64,000 nucleotides of DNA, taken from contig CP051228.1 of NCBI GenBank assembly GCA_017792345.1, forward strand, positions 3,812,148 through 3,876,147, read 5' to 3'. Under the pieces are notes generated by a model that had not been told where the DNA came from, did no database searches, and saw only the letters and a list, made by a program, of their open reading frames with translations. This stretch comes from Mesoflavibacter sp. GTDB taxonomy: Bacteria > Pseudomonadota > Alphaproteobacteria > UBA8366 > Aestuariispiraceae. Positions 3,001 through 42,965 of this stretch are shown here, in pieces (positions within the stretch are counted from its first letter, which is position 1; each line of letters opens with the position of its first letter). The position numbers and the translations under genes are program-made.

Positions 3001-5205
3001 CTACGGATCGCTGGATATACTCGGATCCGATTGGAGCGATCCTCCAGCGCGCCGCTCCATTTCGGAGCGCAGCACTTTGGCGTTCTCGCTGATGGCGGCT
3101 ATCTCCTGAAGCACCTTGTCGGCGTCAACACCGATGGCCTCGCAAACGGAACGCGTGGTCATTTCGGTGCGGACGAGTTCTGGCGTTATTACAATCTCAG
3201 GCTCCGAGACGGCAAACTGCACGACCGTGACGTCCAAGTGTTTCATTGACAATTCGAGTTGGAACGGATTGCGGAGCTGTTCGAGGAAGTCGTCCGCAGT
3301 CGGTGTGTCGCCGCTCCAGAACTTCCGGATGGCCGTCCGGTGTAGAAGTGTCGCATTGCCGACCCGATGAGGCACCTTGATTCGGAAATAGGGCTGGTCA
3401 AAAAAGCGAGTCAGCGCCGACCAATCGGTGAAATGCACCCCGTCGATGTCATCCGCACGGGAATACGGTAGCGAATGAAGCACACAGGGGATAATGGTTA
3501 GGCTGGCATACTCAGCCCCCATCTCCTGCTCGATAATATCGGGATGTTTGACCAGTGCATCAGCGAGTCGACGCACCTGCCTAGCTTGAGAGGCCACCTC
3601 CAAGTCGAAGTAGTAGGCCTGCGCCGGATCGTTGCCGGAGAGGCTACGGTTCTTGCACTCAAACACGAACAGATATCCGTCCCAGGGCACGATGGCATCG
3701 TATTCGTATTCCTCGCTGCCGCGCCGCACACGGAAGCCGAACACCGGGATGCCACGTTTGCGGAAGACCTCTTGGATGACGTGTTCGAAAGCCTTGCCCT
3801 TGCGGCCAAGTTCGGCGCCCCGATTGGAGAGGTTCGACAGCACGGTCATGGCAACGTTCAGATCAATGACAGCAGGCGCAAATAGGAAATAGCCCGAAGC
3901 ACCGACACGCACGAGCGGGCAATCGAACATATCGCGGGCAGAGCGATGCAAGGAGGTGTGCGCGATGAAGCACGCCGCAGCATCTTCCTTGAGACCGCAG
4001 GCCTGCAGGATGCCGAGCAGCTCCACCTTCTCAAGACGGATGACGTAGGTATCGCCGGTCGCCGTCTCATCTTGGGTGCGCGCCTTGGCGATCTCCTTGA
4101 GCACGATGTAACCGCGCACCCATTCGAGAAGACGGAGGCCCTCTGGCCGCTCCTCGTCCTCGACGATGGAATAGCCCAACACCTCGGAGAGCGAGACGTC
4201 GGCATGCGCCTCCTCCATCGACACGAGTTGCACCGGCGGAAGCGCGGCGCCGCCAGTGATGCCGACGCCCTGGCCAGAGAGGCCGCTCTCTATCTCCATC
4301 TCCATAAAGGTCTGGATCAGACGATCGTGGAGGCGGGTATTGGCGAGATAGTCGTAAACGTCGCGTTGAGATAGTCCCTCATCCTCGGGACGGTAGGTGA
4401 TCAGCGTCGTAATCTGATCCGGCAGTCCAGGCGGCAATTGGTCTCCACGGTAGAGCAGCAGGTCGCCATCGAGATACCGGCGACGCTTTTCGACGCGCTG
4501 CCACTGGCGCCAACATAGCGCGAGTGCCTGGGTCGAACCGGACTGGTAACGCACCTCGTCGTCGACTGCGGGCAGGTCCGGCAGAACCACGATGTCGTCG
4601 ACGAACCAGCAATTTTTATAGGCCTCCATGATCAGCGTCATGGCGACCGACTCCGACAAACCGTCTAGGACCGCATCAAGTGGAGCACTTTGTCCATCAT
4701 CATCCTGTAGTCGCAGGCCAGACATCAGATTGAGTTCCGTCGATTTCGCCATAGCCTTGTCGCGACGGCGCATTAACTCCTGATATTCATGGCAGGCGCG
4801 GCTAATGCTGCCGCTGACTCGGATTGGTGCCGGCCGCTCGCCGATGGCGCAGCGGCCGAGTAGTTCGAGGATACCGCGGTAGCCTTGTTCGATCTGGGTG
4901 ATCAACGCCGTCTCGCGAGTCACTTCGGCGGCTGCGTCCTCCCCGAGCTTGACCTCCGCGTAGGCACGGATCTGGTCTAGAAATCTGGTGCGTCGCCGCT
5001 CGAAATCCTTGCGCGGGTACTTGCAGATCAAATCGCTGTAGCGGCGGATATACCCACAGAGCTCGGTCAGTTGATCTCGCGATAGGGCAATCTCAACGAG
5101 ATGTGCTTGAAGCGCATCCCAGTCGAGCGCCTCCAGAGCGTTCTTGACGATCTGTTCGCGCAGTCTTGTTTCACCGCTCACTCGTTCGCAATCGACCACG
5201 GTCAT
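3001..5205 (-). CDS. Orphan 734-aa protein with PD-(D/E)XK nuclease-like motif
   Basis: I do not recognise the full protein. In its second half, a Glu in KAFEHVIQEVF (about residue 474), an Asp in EYEYDAIVPW (about 503) and FECKN (about 516-518) have the order and spacing of a PD-(D/E)XK nuclease core of the Mrr/NERD/restriction type. The first 440 residues are mostly helical-looking, with no motif I can name; the tail (about 690-734) may be a short coiled coil. No methylase, helicase or toxin partner is adjacent. The gene stands alone between long non-coding stretches, convergent with ychJ. GGGAGG precedes the start; a GTG two codons later (5199) has better spacing. A role in DNA processing or defence is inference. 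Confidence 0.65.
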   Translation of the reverse strand: MTVVDCERVSGETRLREQIVKNALEALDWDALQAHLVEIALSRDQLTELCGYIRRYSDLICKYPRKDFERRRTRFLDQIRAYAEVKLGEDAAAEVTRETALITQIEQGYRGILELLGRCAIGERPAPIRVSGSISRACHEYQELMRRRDKAMAKSTELNLMSGLRLQDDDGQSAPLDAVLDGLSESVAMTLIMEAYKNCWFVDDIVVLPDLPAVDDEVRYQSGSTQALALCWRQWQRVEKRRRYLDGDLLLYRGDQLPPGLPDQITTLITYRPEDEGLSQRDVYDYLANTRLHDRLIQTFMEMEIESGLSGQGVGITGGAALPPVQLVSMEEAHADVSLSEVLGYSIVEDEERPEGLRLLEWVRGYIVLKEIAKARTQDETATGDTYVIRLEKVELLGILQACGLKEDAAACFIAHTSLHRSARDMFDCPLVRVGASGYFLFAPAVIDLNVAMTVLSNLSNRGAELGRKGKAFEHVIQEVFRKRGIPVFGFRVRRGSEEYEYDAIVPWDGYLFVFECKNRSLSGNDPAQAYYFDLEVASQARQVRRLADALVKHPDIIEQEMGAEYASLTIIPCVLHSLPYSRADDIDGVHFTDWSALTRFFDQPYFRIKVPHRVGNATLLHRTAIRKFWSGDTPTADDFLEQLRNPFQLELSMKHLDVTVVQFAVSEPEIVITPELVRTEMTTRSVCEAIGVDADKVLQEIAAISENAKVLRSEMERRAGGSLQSDPSISSDP

Positions 5206-5445
5206 GTCCTCCCAACTCTGAACCTAGCATGTACGGCAGGATGCCCTCCAAAGGTGAAATGCCGTTCACTTTTGATACAGCCTCGATTGGAGAATCAACG
5301 AAGGATGTGCCTTTCCAGGATATTCTTAGCTCTGGGACAATTGGTTCAGACATCTCCGCCCAACTCGGATGCTTTCAGACGAGGTACAAGCGTCCCCTTC
5401 GGATTCATGGCAATCGTAGGTCCCGCCACGGAGATAGGCCGCAAT

Positions 5446-9926: not shown

Positions 9927-11063
9927 ATGATGGGGAGCGCGTTGCTTCGCGCCACAGGCGTCCTCTTGCTGGCGGGGATCTGTCTCTCCCCGCCGGCAGC
10001 GGCCGAGCCGATCCAAGTCACCGATCTGGCGGGACGGGTCGTCGAGATCGATCAACCCATCGAACGGTTCGTCCTCAGCGAGGGGCGCTATGTTTCCGTG
10101 CTGGCGCTGCTGCGGCCGGAAAACCCGGTGGAAGGTCTCGTCGGGATGATGTCACCGCTTTGGTGGACCCAGCCGGACCTCGAACGGCAACTCTTCGAGA
10201 AGTTCCCAGAGGCCCGTGATATCCCACTATTCGCTTCCAAGTCCGAACACAGCGTTTCGGTCGAGAAGATCATCGATTTGAAGCCGCAACTCGCGATCCT
10301 CGGCTTGAGCGACCACGGCCCCAATGCGCGCAGCGCCGAACTGATCGCGCAAGTCGAAGCCGCCGGGGTGAAGATAGTGTTCATCGACTTCCGCCTGGAC
10401 CCCCTCAACAATACGATCCCCTCCATCGAACTTCTGGGCAAGTTGCTGGGGGCGGAAGAACAGGCCGCGCGCTACATCGAATTCTACCGGCAGCGTCTTG
10501 CAGCCATCGAGGAGCGTATCCCGGAGATAACCCATCGACCGACCGTGTTCCTTCAGGTCCATCCGGGACGTCGGGATTGTTGCTGGGCCATGGCTGAAGG
10601 CATGCTTGGTCCGTTCCTGACCTTTGTCGGCGGCCGAAACATTGCCGACGAACTGGCGCCGGGCCCGACATCCCAGCATACGGAAGAATATCTTCTGACC
10701 GAGAATCCCGATGTCTGGATCGGCACGGCCTCCGGTACGGTGGAGGAATTTCAGGAAGGGCAGAATGTCGTCGCCCTGGGGGTCGGGATGACGCGCGAAA
10801 CGGCACAGCAAAGTCTGGCGCGATACCTGTCTGCGCCGGCCTTCCAGGCCATGGGCGCGGTCCAGAACGGGCGGGCCCATGTGGTCTGGCACAATTTCTA
10901 CAACTCACCCTTCAACATCGTCGCGGTCGAAGCCTTTGCCGCCTGGGTTCAGCCGGAACTGTTCGGGGAACTCGACCCGGATGAGACGATGCGGACGATT
11001 TTTCGGGAGTTTCTGCCCTTCGATCTGAACGGTACCTATACGGCGTCAATTCCGAATGAGTGA
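9927..11063 (+). CDS. Periplasmic iron-complex binding protein of ABC transporter
   Basis: A class III (FecB/FhuD/BtuF-type) substrate-binding protein of about 378 aa. It has a signal peptide (LLRATGVLLLAGICLSPPAAA, about residues 6-26), the family opening VTDLAGRVVEIDQPIERFV, and a long helical connection between lobes. Its start sits two bases after the receptor stop, with GGAG upstream, so it is co-transcribed with it. It should collect the iron complex in the periplasm and deliver it to the permease encoded next. An adjacent Cys pair (about residue 215) is unusual for the family. Confidence 0.88.
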   Translation: MMGSALLRATGVLLLAGICLSPPAAAEPIQVTDLAGRVVEIDQPIERFVLSEGRYVSVLALLRPENPVEGLVGMMSPLWWTQPDLERQLFEKFPEARDIPLFASKSEHSVSVEKIIDLKPQLAILGLSDHGPNARSAELIAQVEAAGVKIVFIDFRLDPLNNTIPSIELLGKLLGAEEQAARYIEFYRQRLAAIEERIPEITHRPTVFLQVHPGRRDCCWAMAEGMLGPFLTFVGGRNIADELAPGPTSQHTEEYLLTENPDVWIGTASGTVEEFQEGQNVVALGVGMTRETAQQSLARYLSAPAFQAMGAVQNGRAHVVWHNFYNSPFNIVAVEAFAAWVQPELFGELDPDETMRTIFREFLPFDLNGTYTASIPNE

Positions 11064-12105
11064 GCAATCCGTTCTGCTTTATGACCGGTTCGGCCGCATT
11101 GTTCGCCGCCGGCGGCTCTGCCTCGCCGGTCTGGCCCTGGCGTTGCTGTGCAGCCTTTGCCTTGATCTGATGGCCGGCCCCGCGGATCTGGGCTTATCGG
11201 ATATCGTGTCGGGTTTGTTCCGGCCGGACGAAATGGACATGCGGCATCGGATCATTCTGTGGGATGTGCGGCTGCCGGATGCGCTGATTGCGTTGGCCGT
11301 CGGGGGCTGCCTCGGTCTTGCCGGGATCGAAAGCCAGACCATCCTCGACAATCCTCTCGCCAGTCCGTTCACCCTCGGCGTTTCGTCGGCGGCGGTCTTC
11401 GGCGCCAGTGTCGCGATTGTCAGTGCGCCGGCCCTGGCCTTCCTGCCGGTTGGGGTGGCGGTTCCCGGGATGGCCTTGGCTTTTGCGCTCGGATCGGGGG
11501 CTTTGATCCTGATGGTCGTCCGGATTTCGGGCGGCGCGCGCGAGACCGTGGTGTTGTTCGGCATTGCGCTGGTGTTTCTCTGGACGGCGACGACATCGGG
11601 CCTTCACATGGTCGCCGATGTCGATGCGATCCAGGAGATCGTCTTCTGGTCCATCGGCAATCTGACCAAGGCGGGATGGAATGAGGTGGCGATCGTATTC
11701 GCCGTCTTCACGCTGGTTCTGCCGTTCAGCCTGCGTCAGGTCTGGGTGATGACCCTGCTGCGCGGCGGCGAGGCGCAGGCCCGCAGCATGGGCATCGACA
11801 TATCGCGGTTGCGCGTTTGGGTGATCTTCAGGACATCCGTCCTGGCGGCCTTCGCCGTGTGCTTTGTCGGTACGATCAGCTTCGTCGGTCTTGTCGGGCC
11901 GCATGTCGCGCGCCTGATCTTCGGCGAAGATCATCGGGCACTGGTGCCCGGCGCGGCCCTGTGCAGCGCCCTGATCCTTTCCCTGGCGTCGTTTCTGTCA
12001 AAGACCCTGATTCCCGGCGCGGTCATACCGGTGGGCGTTCTGACCGCCGTTGTCGGCGTTCCGGTCCTGTTGAGCCTGCTTGCCGGGCGCAGGAGGCCGC
12101 GATGA
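11056..12105 (+). CDS. FecCD-type ABC transporter permease for iron complex
   Basis: A 349-aa polytopic protein with about nine to ten hydrophobic helices and the FecCD-family signature LGLAGIESQTILDNPLASPFTLGVSSAA near residue 80-105, plus GTISFVGLVGPHVARLIFGEDHR near residue 275. It forms the inner-membrane channel, normally a homodimer. Its start overlaps the binding-protein gene by 8 bases and its stop overlaps the ATPase start (ATGA), a tight operon. A basic N-terminal segment (YDRFGRIVRRRR) precedes the first helix. Confidence 0.92.
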   Translation: MSEQSVLLYDRFGRIVRRRRLCLAGLALALLCSLCLDLMAGPADLGLSDIVSGLFRPDEMDMRHRIILWDVRLPDALIALAVGGCLGLAGIESQTILDNPLASPFTLGVSSAAVFGASVAIVSAPALAFLPVGVAVPGMALAFALGSGALILMVVRISGGARETVVLFGIALVFLWTATTSGLHMVADVDAIQEIVFWSIGNLTKAGWNEVAIVFAVFTLVLPFSLRQVWVMTLLRGGEAQARSMGIDISRLRVWVIFRTSVLAAFAVCFVGTISFVGLVGPHVARLIFGEDHRALVPGAALCSALILSLASFLSKTLIPGAVIPVGVLTAVVGVPVLLSLLAGRRRPR

Positions 12106-12884
12106 TTCGGCTGGGCGTATCGGGTCTGTCCGCGGCCTATGGGCGGACGCGGGTTCTGCACGACGTGGCTCTGCCGGATCTGCACGACGGGCAGTTGCTG
12201 GGACTGCTGGGACCGAACGCATCGGGCAAATCGACCGCGATGCATTGCCTGGCCCGGCAGATGAAGGCCGATGGCGAGATCCGGATCGACGGCGATCCGG
12301 TGTCGGACATTCCACATGCGACCTGGCTGCGTAAGGTCGCGATCGTTCCGCAATCGCCGCCGGCGCCGACGTCGCTGACACCGACCGAATTGCTGTGGAG
12401 CGCCGTGCGGGCCCTCGACCTCGCACTCTCTGACCGAAGCCTTGCAGCCCGAATTCAGGATATCTTTGCCGAGCTTGGGCTCTCCGATCTCGCCTTTGCG
12501 CCGCTGCATACTCTCTCGGGCGGAAAGCGCCAGTTGGTCGGCATCGCGCTGGCTCTTGTCCGCGATCCCCAGATCGTCCTGCTCGACGAACCGACCTCCG
12601 CATTGGATCTCTATTGGCGCTTGACGGTTCTCGATCTCGTCCGGTCCAGGTTGGCGCGACAGGGGGGCGCGGTGGTCATTGCGTTGCACGACATGGATCT
12701 GGCGGCACGCTACTGCGACCAGGTCGCGCTGTTGAGTAACGGGCGTGTCGTCGCGGCCGGTCTGCCTGCCGAGGTGATGACACCGGATAACCTCGCGTCC
12801 GTCTACGGCGTGGAAGCGAAGACCCGCATGGGGGAGGACGGTCGGGTAACGATCAACGTGCTCCGGCCCATTAGGGCGTCATGA
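12102..12884 (+). CDS. FecE-type ABC transporter ATP-binding protein
   Basis: A 260-aa ATPase with Walker A GPNASGKST (about residue 36), Q-loop in IVPQSPP, signature LSGGKRQ, Walker B IVLLDEPTSALD and H-loop ALHDMD. It energises import by the preceding permease. ATG 12102 is preferred because AGGAGG lies 5 bases upstream and it overlaps the permease stop as ATGA; the frame stays open further upstream but inside the permease gene. It ends the iron module. Confidence 0.94.
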   Translation: MIRLGVSGLSAAYGRTRVLHDVALPDLHDGQLLGLLGPNASGKSTAMHCLARQMKADGEIRIDGDPVSDIPHATWLRKVAIVPQSPPAPTSLTPTELLWSAVRALDLALSDRSLAARIQDIFAELGLSDLAFAPLHTLSGGKRQLVGIALALVRDPQIVLLDEPTSALDLYWRLTVLDLVRSRLARQGGAVVIALHDMDLAARYCDQVALLSNGRVVAAGLPAEVMTPDNLASVYGVEAKTRMGEDGRVTINVLRPIRAS

Positions 12885-41668: not shown

Positions 41669-41844
41669 GGAAGACTCACCTGAACCGGATTGACGAACCA
41701 GGCGATTATTCCCAATGGCGGTGTGCCGTATCAATATTTATTTAAGCGGTTGTGCAAAATAATGTGCCGCGCGGGCTGGAATAAGAATGGCCGCCCCGTT
41801 GGTGACGAAGGACGGCCGTTCTATACGAAATCTGCGGCGATGAC

Positions 41845-42777
41845 CTATTGGCTCAAACTGGTATAGACGATGGCGAGCCAGGTCGGTTCGTCGATCAGCG
41901 CGGCCCAGCTTTTCCATTCTTCAGGCACGCCCGTTGCCTGAATATCTTCCAGGGATTTGCCGGCGGCGATCGCGTCGGAAACCAACGCCAGAGAGTCCTC
42001 CAGCATCCGGTGATAGACTCGCAAGTCCGCCTTTGTCGCGATCGGGCCATGGCCTGGGACGATGGTCACATCGTCGGGAAAGGCTGTCAGAATCCGGCCG
42101 ACATTCTGCGCCACGCCCTGGACGCTGCCGCCGTTCTCGACATCGACAAAGGGGAACAGGCCGTTGAAGAACAGGTCGCCTGTATGCACCACGTTGGATT
42201 TGGTGAAATAGACGACCGTGTCGGTATCGGTATGGCTGGCGGGGTAATGGACCAGCTGGATTTCCTCGCCGTTCAGATGGATCGACGCGGATTCGTCATA
42301 GGTGATGACGGGCAGGGCACTGTCCGGATTGGCTGGAAACGACATCCCGAATGCCTCGAGCTTTTGTTCGGTCGACAGGCGTTTTCGGACATTGGTGTGG
42401 GCGATGATGGTTGCGGACTTGCCCAATTCGGCATTCCCGCCGGCATGGTCGAAATGCCAATGCGTGTTGACGACGAAGCGCAGCGTGTCGCGGCCGCCCA
42501 ACGCGTCCAGTGCGGCGTTCAGCTTTTCCGTCATGGTCTGCAGCTTGTCGTCGATGATCAGCATCCCGTCCGGTCCGCTGGAAACGATGACATTGCCGCC
42601 CGAGAAGCCATTGATGCCGGACAGGACCGCCAGCGTGTCATTCAGCTTCGTCGTGCCGATCTGAATATCTTCGGCCTATACGCTTTGATGGGCTTCGTGG
42701 GCGGTCGCCGTGGCGATGCTTGAAACCGCGAAAAATCCAGCGAACGTCAGACGCGCCGCGATACCCCTGTTCTGCAT
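41845..42777 (-). pseudogene. Secreted metallo-beta-lactamase-fold hydrolase interrupted by amber codon
   Basis: The single frame from ATG 42777 to 41845 (311 codons) encodes a signal peptide (MQNRGIAARLTFAGFFAV..., cleavage near ATAHA/EAHQ) and, from codon 35 on, an MBL-fold enzyme: TKLNDTLAVLSG, then THWHFDHAGGN (the HxHxDH zinc site), HTGDLFFNG and VPGHGPI. A TAG at 42676-42678 sits at codon 34, exactly between signal peptide and domain. The sequence after TAG reads as the expected start of the mature domain. Translation could restart at ATG 42564 as a 239-aa unexported fragment. AGGAGG-like GGAGGG precedes ATG 42777. Confidence 0.85.
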
Positions 42778-42965
42778 GGTGGAACCCTCCTTACGGTTAG
42801 AAACCACAGATAAGATGAGGGGGGCGCCGATCAAGCGCGATGCGGCATTGCGGTGCGGCAATAATCCGGCTTCCCGCCTGCCGTCTGGACAAGAACCGGC
42901 ATCGCCGCTAACTAACCTCTTCCGCTCCGCCGGAGCGAATTGAAGGTATGTAAGGACCGAGAAAC

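Follow-up and report, generated by a model that had tools for sequence, protein, structure and literature searches.

A likely recent nonsense pseudogene: a single amber codon interrupts a putatively exported MBL-fold metallohydrolase gene

In-frame stops in bacterial genes are described as widespread and as tending to be short-lived in the sections of Belinky et al. (2021; PMC7918605) drawn on here, and the genes that carry them have an average dN/dS below 1. The gene considered in this work lies on the minus strand of the window, the whole 64,000-nucleotide stretch of DNA that was analyzed. Its frame, from 42777 to 41845, comprises 311 codons including the terminal stop, and translation agrees with the initial annotation that it is open apart from one TAG at codon 34, which is its single internal stop (Table 1). 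That annotation had placed the TAG exactly between the signal peptide and the MBL domain. It does fall between the two, but the match with the cleavage site is not exact: under the AxA rule, which we assume to apply here, the putative cleavage would follow A26, and the TAG would then lie seven residues further on, a few residues inside the mature linker. The linker is ~12 codons long and precedes the first β-strand of the predicted fold; most residues are probably tolerated over these ~12 of the 310 codons.

Table 1. Positions of the features discussed in the text; coordinates are those of the window unless a locus is named.
Feature	Coordinates	Strand	Basis
Shine-Dalgarno-like AAGGAGGG	42785..42792	-	upstream sequence; 7 nt before ATG 42777
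Leader, 33 codons, signal-peptide-like (MQNRGIAARLTFAGFFAVSSIATATA, then HEAHQSV)	42679..42777	-	translation; homologous hydrophobic leaders
In-frame TAG, codon 34 of the 311-codon frame	42676..42678	-	translation
MBL-fold hydrolase domain, 276 codons, plus terminal TAG	41845..42675	-	Pfam Lactamase_B; AlphaFold
First ATG past the TAG, residue 38 of the 276	42562..42564	-	translation
~1.2 kb missing or not alignable at the G003 syntenic site	41670..42876	.	comparison with G003
Decayed MBL homologue, G013:C179	L197 ~4740-5330		unmatched first 106 of 276 residues, TAA
Chromate-transporter gene with in-frame TAG	L205:12008-13363, TAG 12608-12610 (G000:C1 3712608)	+	scan and relatives

A chance open frame was ruled out by homology and codon scores. 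The 37 codons from the TAG to ATG 42564 have a codon-usage score of 20.1, the top value among open leads bounded by a visible stop (the ranking took in 496 called genes with leads of at least 20 codons, and its sole higher row is cut by the edge of the stretch). The codons after the TAG also align with homologues, reading IQIGTTKLNDTLAVLSG against VSIGATKLNETLTMLSG in the nearest relative, L031. Together with the Shine-Dalgarno-like motif and the open leaders found in homologous loci, these features show that the frame is not fortuitous. No second lesion was found in the MBL gene; decay is seen at one base only.

The protein encoded past the TAG is a member of the MBL superfamily, scoring 64.7 bits against Pfam Lactamase_B (PF00753), for which the gathering cut-off is 22.7, and the AlphaFold model of its 276 residues is predicted with a mean pLDDT of 96.4 and a pTM of 0.93. 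It keeps 39 of the 41 columns that are conserved in at least 90% of 109 homologues (10 of the 119 loci were dropped, these being own copies, duplicates, short or low-scoring ones and the broken copy of G013). L031, which comes from a Rhodospirillales metagenome bin and shares 65% identity with the window protein, likewise departs at two. All seven H/D positions, which we take to be those of the metal-site motif (H72, H74, D76, H77, H148, D167 and H209), are present. The dN/dS ratio against L031 is 0.171 at a dS of 1.45, an average over both lineages that cannot date the stop. Given the conserved columns, the H/D positions and the top codon score after the TAG, the gene appears to have been functional until recently or to be still in use, two states that sequence alone cannot separate.

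The best Foldseek match to this protein is a chlorothalonil hydrolytic dehalogenase of the MBL fold (PDB ID: 6UXU; TM 0.78 by query length), which is also the second-best profile match, behind 8D2Z, although the two proteins are 21% identical over the structural alignment. With the subclass B1 metallo-β-lactamases the window protein shares the MBL fold and what we take to be an HxHxDH motif, but it scores 53.6 bits on NCBIfam NF033088, below the cut-off of 200. Its best NCBIfam match, the SoxH-related quinoprotein-relay zinc metallohydrolase 2 (TIGR04559), gives 86.2 bits against a cut-off of 280, and no cut-off was reached among the best 25 of 36 matching models. A β-lactamase identity was ruled out by these cut-offs.

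Hydrophobic leaders are found in nearly all the homologues: with six of the 119 loci excluded by name and three more cut by contig edges, 110 loci show their upstream stop, and 109 of these have an open leader of at least 15 residues that passes a crude hydrophobicity rule. Comparison with orthologues, which the initial annotation had named as a check, shows the leader open for at least 19 residues, and hence without a stop at the place of the TAG, at 112 homologous loci, three of them cut by a contig edge, out of the 113 that remain when six of the 119 are left out by name. The TAG therefore interrupts a frame that homologues keep open, as in a nonsense pseudogene. The lone exception in both counts, L089 from Pyxidicoccus fallax, has its frame broken inside the domain, at about query residue 50, perhaps through a frameshift or an assembly error.

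The distribution of the gene is patchy. In five congeners (G001-G005) we detected distant MBL-fold matches only, the best with an E value of 8.0e-6. The closest of these, G003, in which the first 311 residues of AlaS are 97% identical, has no MBL gene at the syntenic site; the flavin-oxidoreductase and alaS neighbors are in place, with ~150 bp between them. A homologue from another genus of the same family (G013, a draft genome with 7% contamination) has an in-frame TAA near its end as well as its unmatched N-terminal part, and this copy has decayed separately from the window gene. Visual inspection suggests a leader-like piece in another frame immediately upstream of it, after the apparent end of polA. 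Across the 119 loci, own copies included, an internal stop within the matched domain occurs in the broken G013 copy only, L036 having a terminal one. No shared neighborhood emerged from the 80 homologous loci compared within their flanks, where AlaS is beside the gene in none and a ~30% identical flavin-oxidoreductase match occurs in two. A plasmid origin was rejected, every one of the 63 matching plasmid records being below 60% identity, as was a viral origin, the viral scan having found nothing. The MBL gene looks patchy and dispensable in its family, so its loss by nonsense mutation would be unsurprising; its absence from the congeners may reflect either loss there or gain in this genome.

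We consider it likely that this is a recent nonsense pseudogene, in which the gene for an exported MBL-fold metallohydrolase has been cut by one amber. A patchily distributed gene of this type would have been hit by a single recent mutation in the linker between the signal peptide and the catalytic domain, with the base being real and the ribosome halting at the TAG. Translation would begin normally at ATG 42777 and stop after 33 residues, and the enzyme would not be made, since there is no good in-frame start soon downstream of the TAG; the domain would still look intact because the change is recent. The single-base nonsense change proposed in the initial annotation is the best reading of a gene that is otherwise intact, and the loss of the enzyme that it envisaged is the likely consequence. 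As it stands, the case would be one of ordinary recent gene loss. Three observations count against this reading: the lack of a second lesion in the gene, and the linker position of the stop and the presence of a second gene with the same pattern, the last two of which a leaky amber would predict.

Low-level read-through of the amber, by which a little full-length exported enzyme would be made and the TAG would act as an expression throttle, is in our judgment improbable. It could draw on the intact MBL domain downstream of the linker TAG, on a second gene of this genome, for a chromate transporter, that also carries an in-frame TAG in an interdomain linker, and on the relevant sections of PMC7918605, which report that in-frame stops occur widely in bacterial genes and that many of these genes have a dN/dS below 1. 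The same sections nevertheless assume that functional recoding is lacking in the vast majority of read-through events detected. Nor is the stop conserved across species, as would be expected of programmed read-through, the homologous loci counted above being open there with one exception. The fold of the RNA around the TAG (z 0.73) shows nothing beyond shuffles and offers no stimulatory structure.

The decoding genes found give read-through no help either. TAG is the terminator of 197 called genes out of 939, a figure that includes the chromate-transporter TAG itself; gene scoring covered 1.064 Mb of the 4.908-Mb genome, with mechanical gene calls among which are some shadows. A backup stop follows within 10 codons after 44 of 197 TAG, 110 of 530 TGA and 38 of 210 TAA terminators, with no clear excess after TAG. 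The release factor gene prfA (RF1) is present (497.9 bits against a cut-off of 423.25), and the best matches to PylS, at 26.9 and 20.3 bits, are under the cut-off of 178.15. Rfam lists 45 tRNA-like places, 44 of them over the cut-off, and ARAGORN assigns 44 tRNA genes there (G000 set, L155-L196). An anticodon CUA, as a suppressor tRNA would carry, is found in 0 of these 44 tRNA genes and in 0 of the 11 in the 1.064-Mb sample, an incomplete census, in which tRNA-Ile(GAT) and tRNA-Ala(TGC) are unseen too; these two are usual in rRNA operons. ARAGORN also reports a tRNA-Tyr with anticodon ATA (L199:4547-4633, minus strand), possibly a false positive, and a tRNA-Leu(CAA) in L232, neither of which is listed by Rfam. 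Amber reassignment was ruled out by the use of TAG as a terminator, by RF1 and by the PylS result, and the tRNA genes found agree. Nothing points to a UAG decoding system, and the read-through option raised in the initial annotation finds support neither in these genes and backup stops nor in the RNA structure.

A one-position error in assembly or base calling, which would leave the MBL gene intact, is similarly improbable. The lesion is indeed a single base in an otherwise sound gene, but the genome, 100% complete, is in a single contig, and an error would need to land by coincidence in a gene that is absent or lost in relatives. Substitution errors are, moreover, rarer than indels in finished assemblies.

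The chromate-transporter TAG lies ~142 kb from the MBL gene, in the linker between the two halves of its protein, both of which match Chromate_transp (152.2 and 108.9 bits); the first usual start after it is a TTG 32 codons on. G003, G005, G002 and G013 each have the transporter as a single uninterrupted frame (L210 and L214, of six relatives, were not counted in this reading), and all nine matches, spread over eight other genomes of 13, are open frames of 431-485 aa with no internal stop. Compared with G003, the N half, with its first 21 codons left out, is identical at 141 of 179 residues with a dN/dS of 0.132, and the C half, taken from five codons past the TAG, at 186 of 245 with a dN/dS of 0.152. 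Relaxed selection on the part past the TAG is not seen in this comparison, which at a dS above 1 has little to tell on recent time.

When 897 of the 939 called genes were scanned for in-frame coding ahead of an upstream stop, 92 rows were returned, most of which, judged by eye and not row by row, are neighboring genes in the same frame. The scan omits the MBL stop, which is listed by the codon-score lead test. A separate local scan, whose rows include many antisense shadows, does not enter the counts. A further TAG, at L227:10922, was set aside: it is antisense to an ORF on the plus strand (10341-11138), with the start of the fatty-acid hydroxylase domain far downstream. Just two amber-interrupted genes are confirmed in the sample of 939, which weighs against read-through and is to be read as at least two, as frameshifts and stops near starts escape the scan. 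The pair of linker ambers is suggestive, but these are two among 939 called genes, emerged after the fact and have no confirmed TAA or TGA counterpart for comparison. It could be that linker ambers are tolerated in this genome, the MBL and chromate-transporter genes both being expressed at a low level through UAG read-through with no dedicated suppressor tRNA and the ambers acting as reversible throttles on exported or membrane proteins, which we regard as very doubtful. Two such ambers in one genome would make a small, cheap test of whether UAG is read through at a useful level in an environmental bacterium of this kind.

The initial annotation also allowed for an unexported fragment from ATG 42564, which opens a 239-residue frame with no in-frame ATG, GTG or TTG between it and the TAG, but it is highly improbable that this start yields a shortened cytoplasmic enzyme: no clear Shine-Dalgarno sequence precedes it by eye, and its product would be without three N-terminal β-strands of the predicted fold (E5-10, E15-21 and E29-34, including the conserved G20, G26, G27, N28 and G34) and without any signal peptide, so that no active fragment is expected and a working cytoplasmic one is unlikely. 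An annotation that reports a cytoplasmic MBL protein of 239 aa starting at this ATG would be misleading; the gene may instead be flagged as a pseudogene.

Read as a recent nonsense pseudogene, the MBL gene resembles the cases of Belinky et al. (2021; PMC7918605), as far as the sections drawn on here describe them, in having one in-frame stop, apparently short-lived, in an otherwise conserved gene; among those cases is an in-frame TAG in Paenibacillus. It differs from them in that its stop is known from a single genome, which leaves no way to show conservation of the stop across species. The MBL amber fits the description of in-frame stops given in those sections and is not a new kind.
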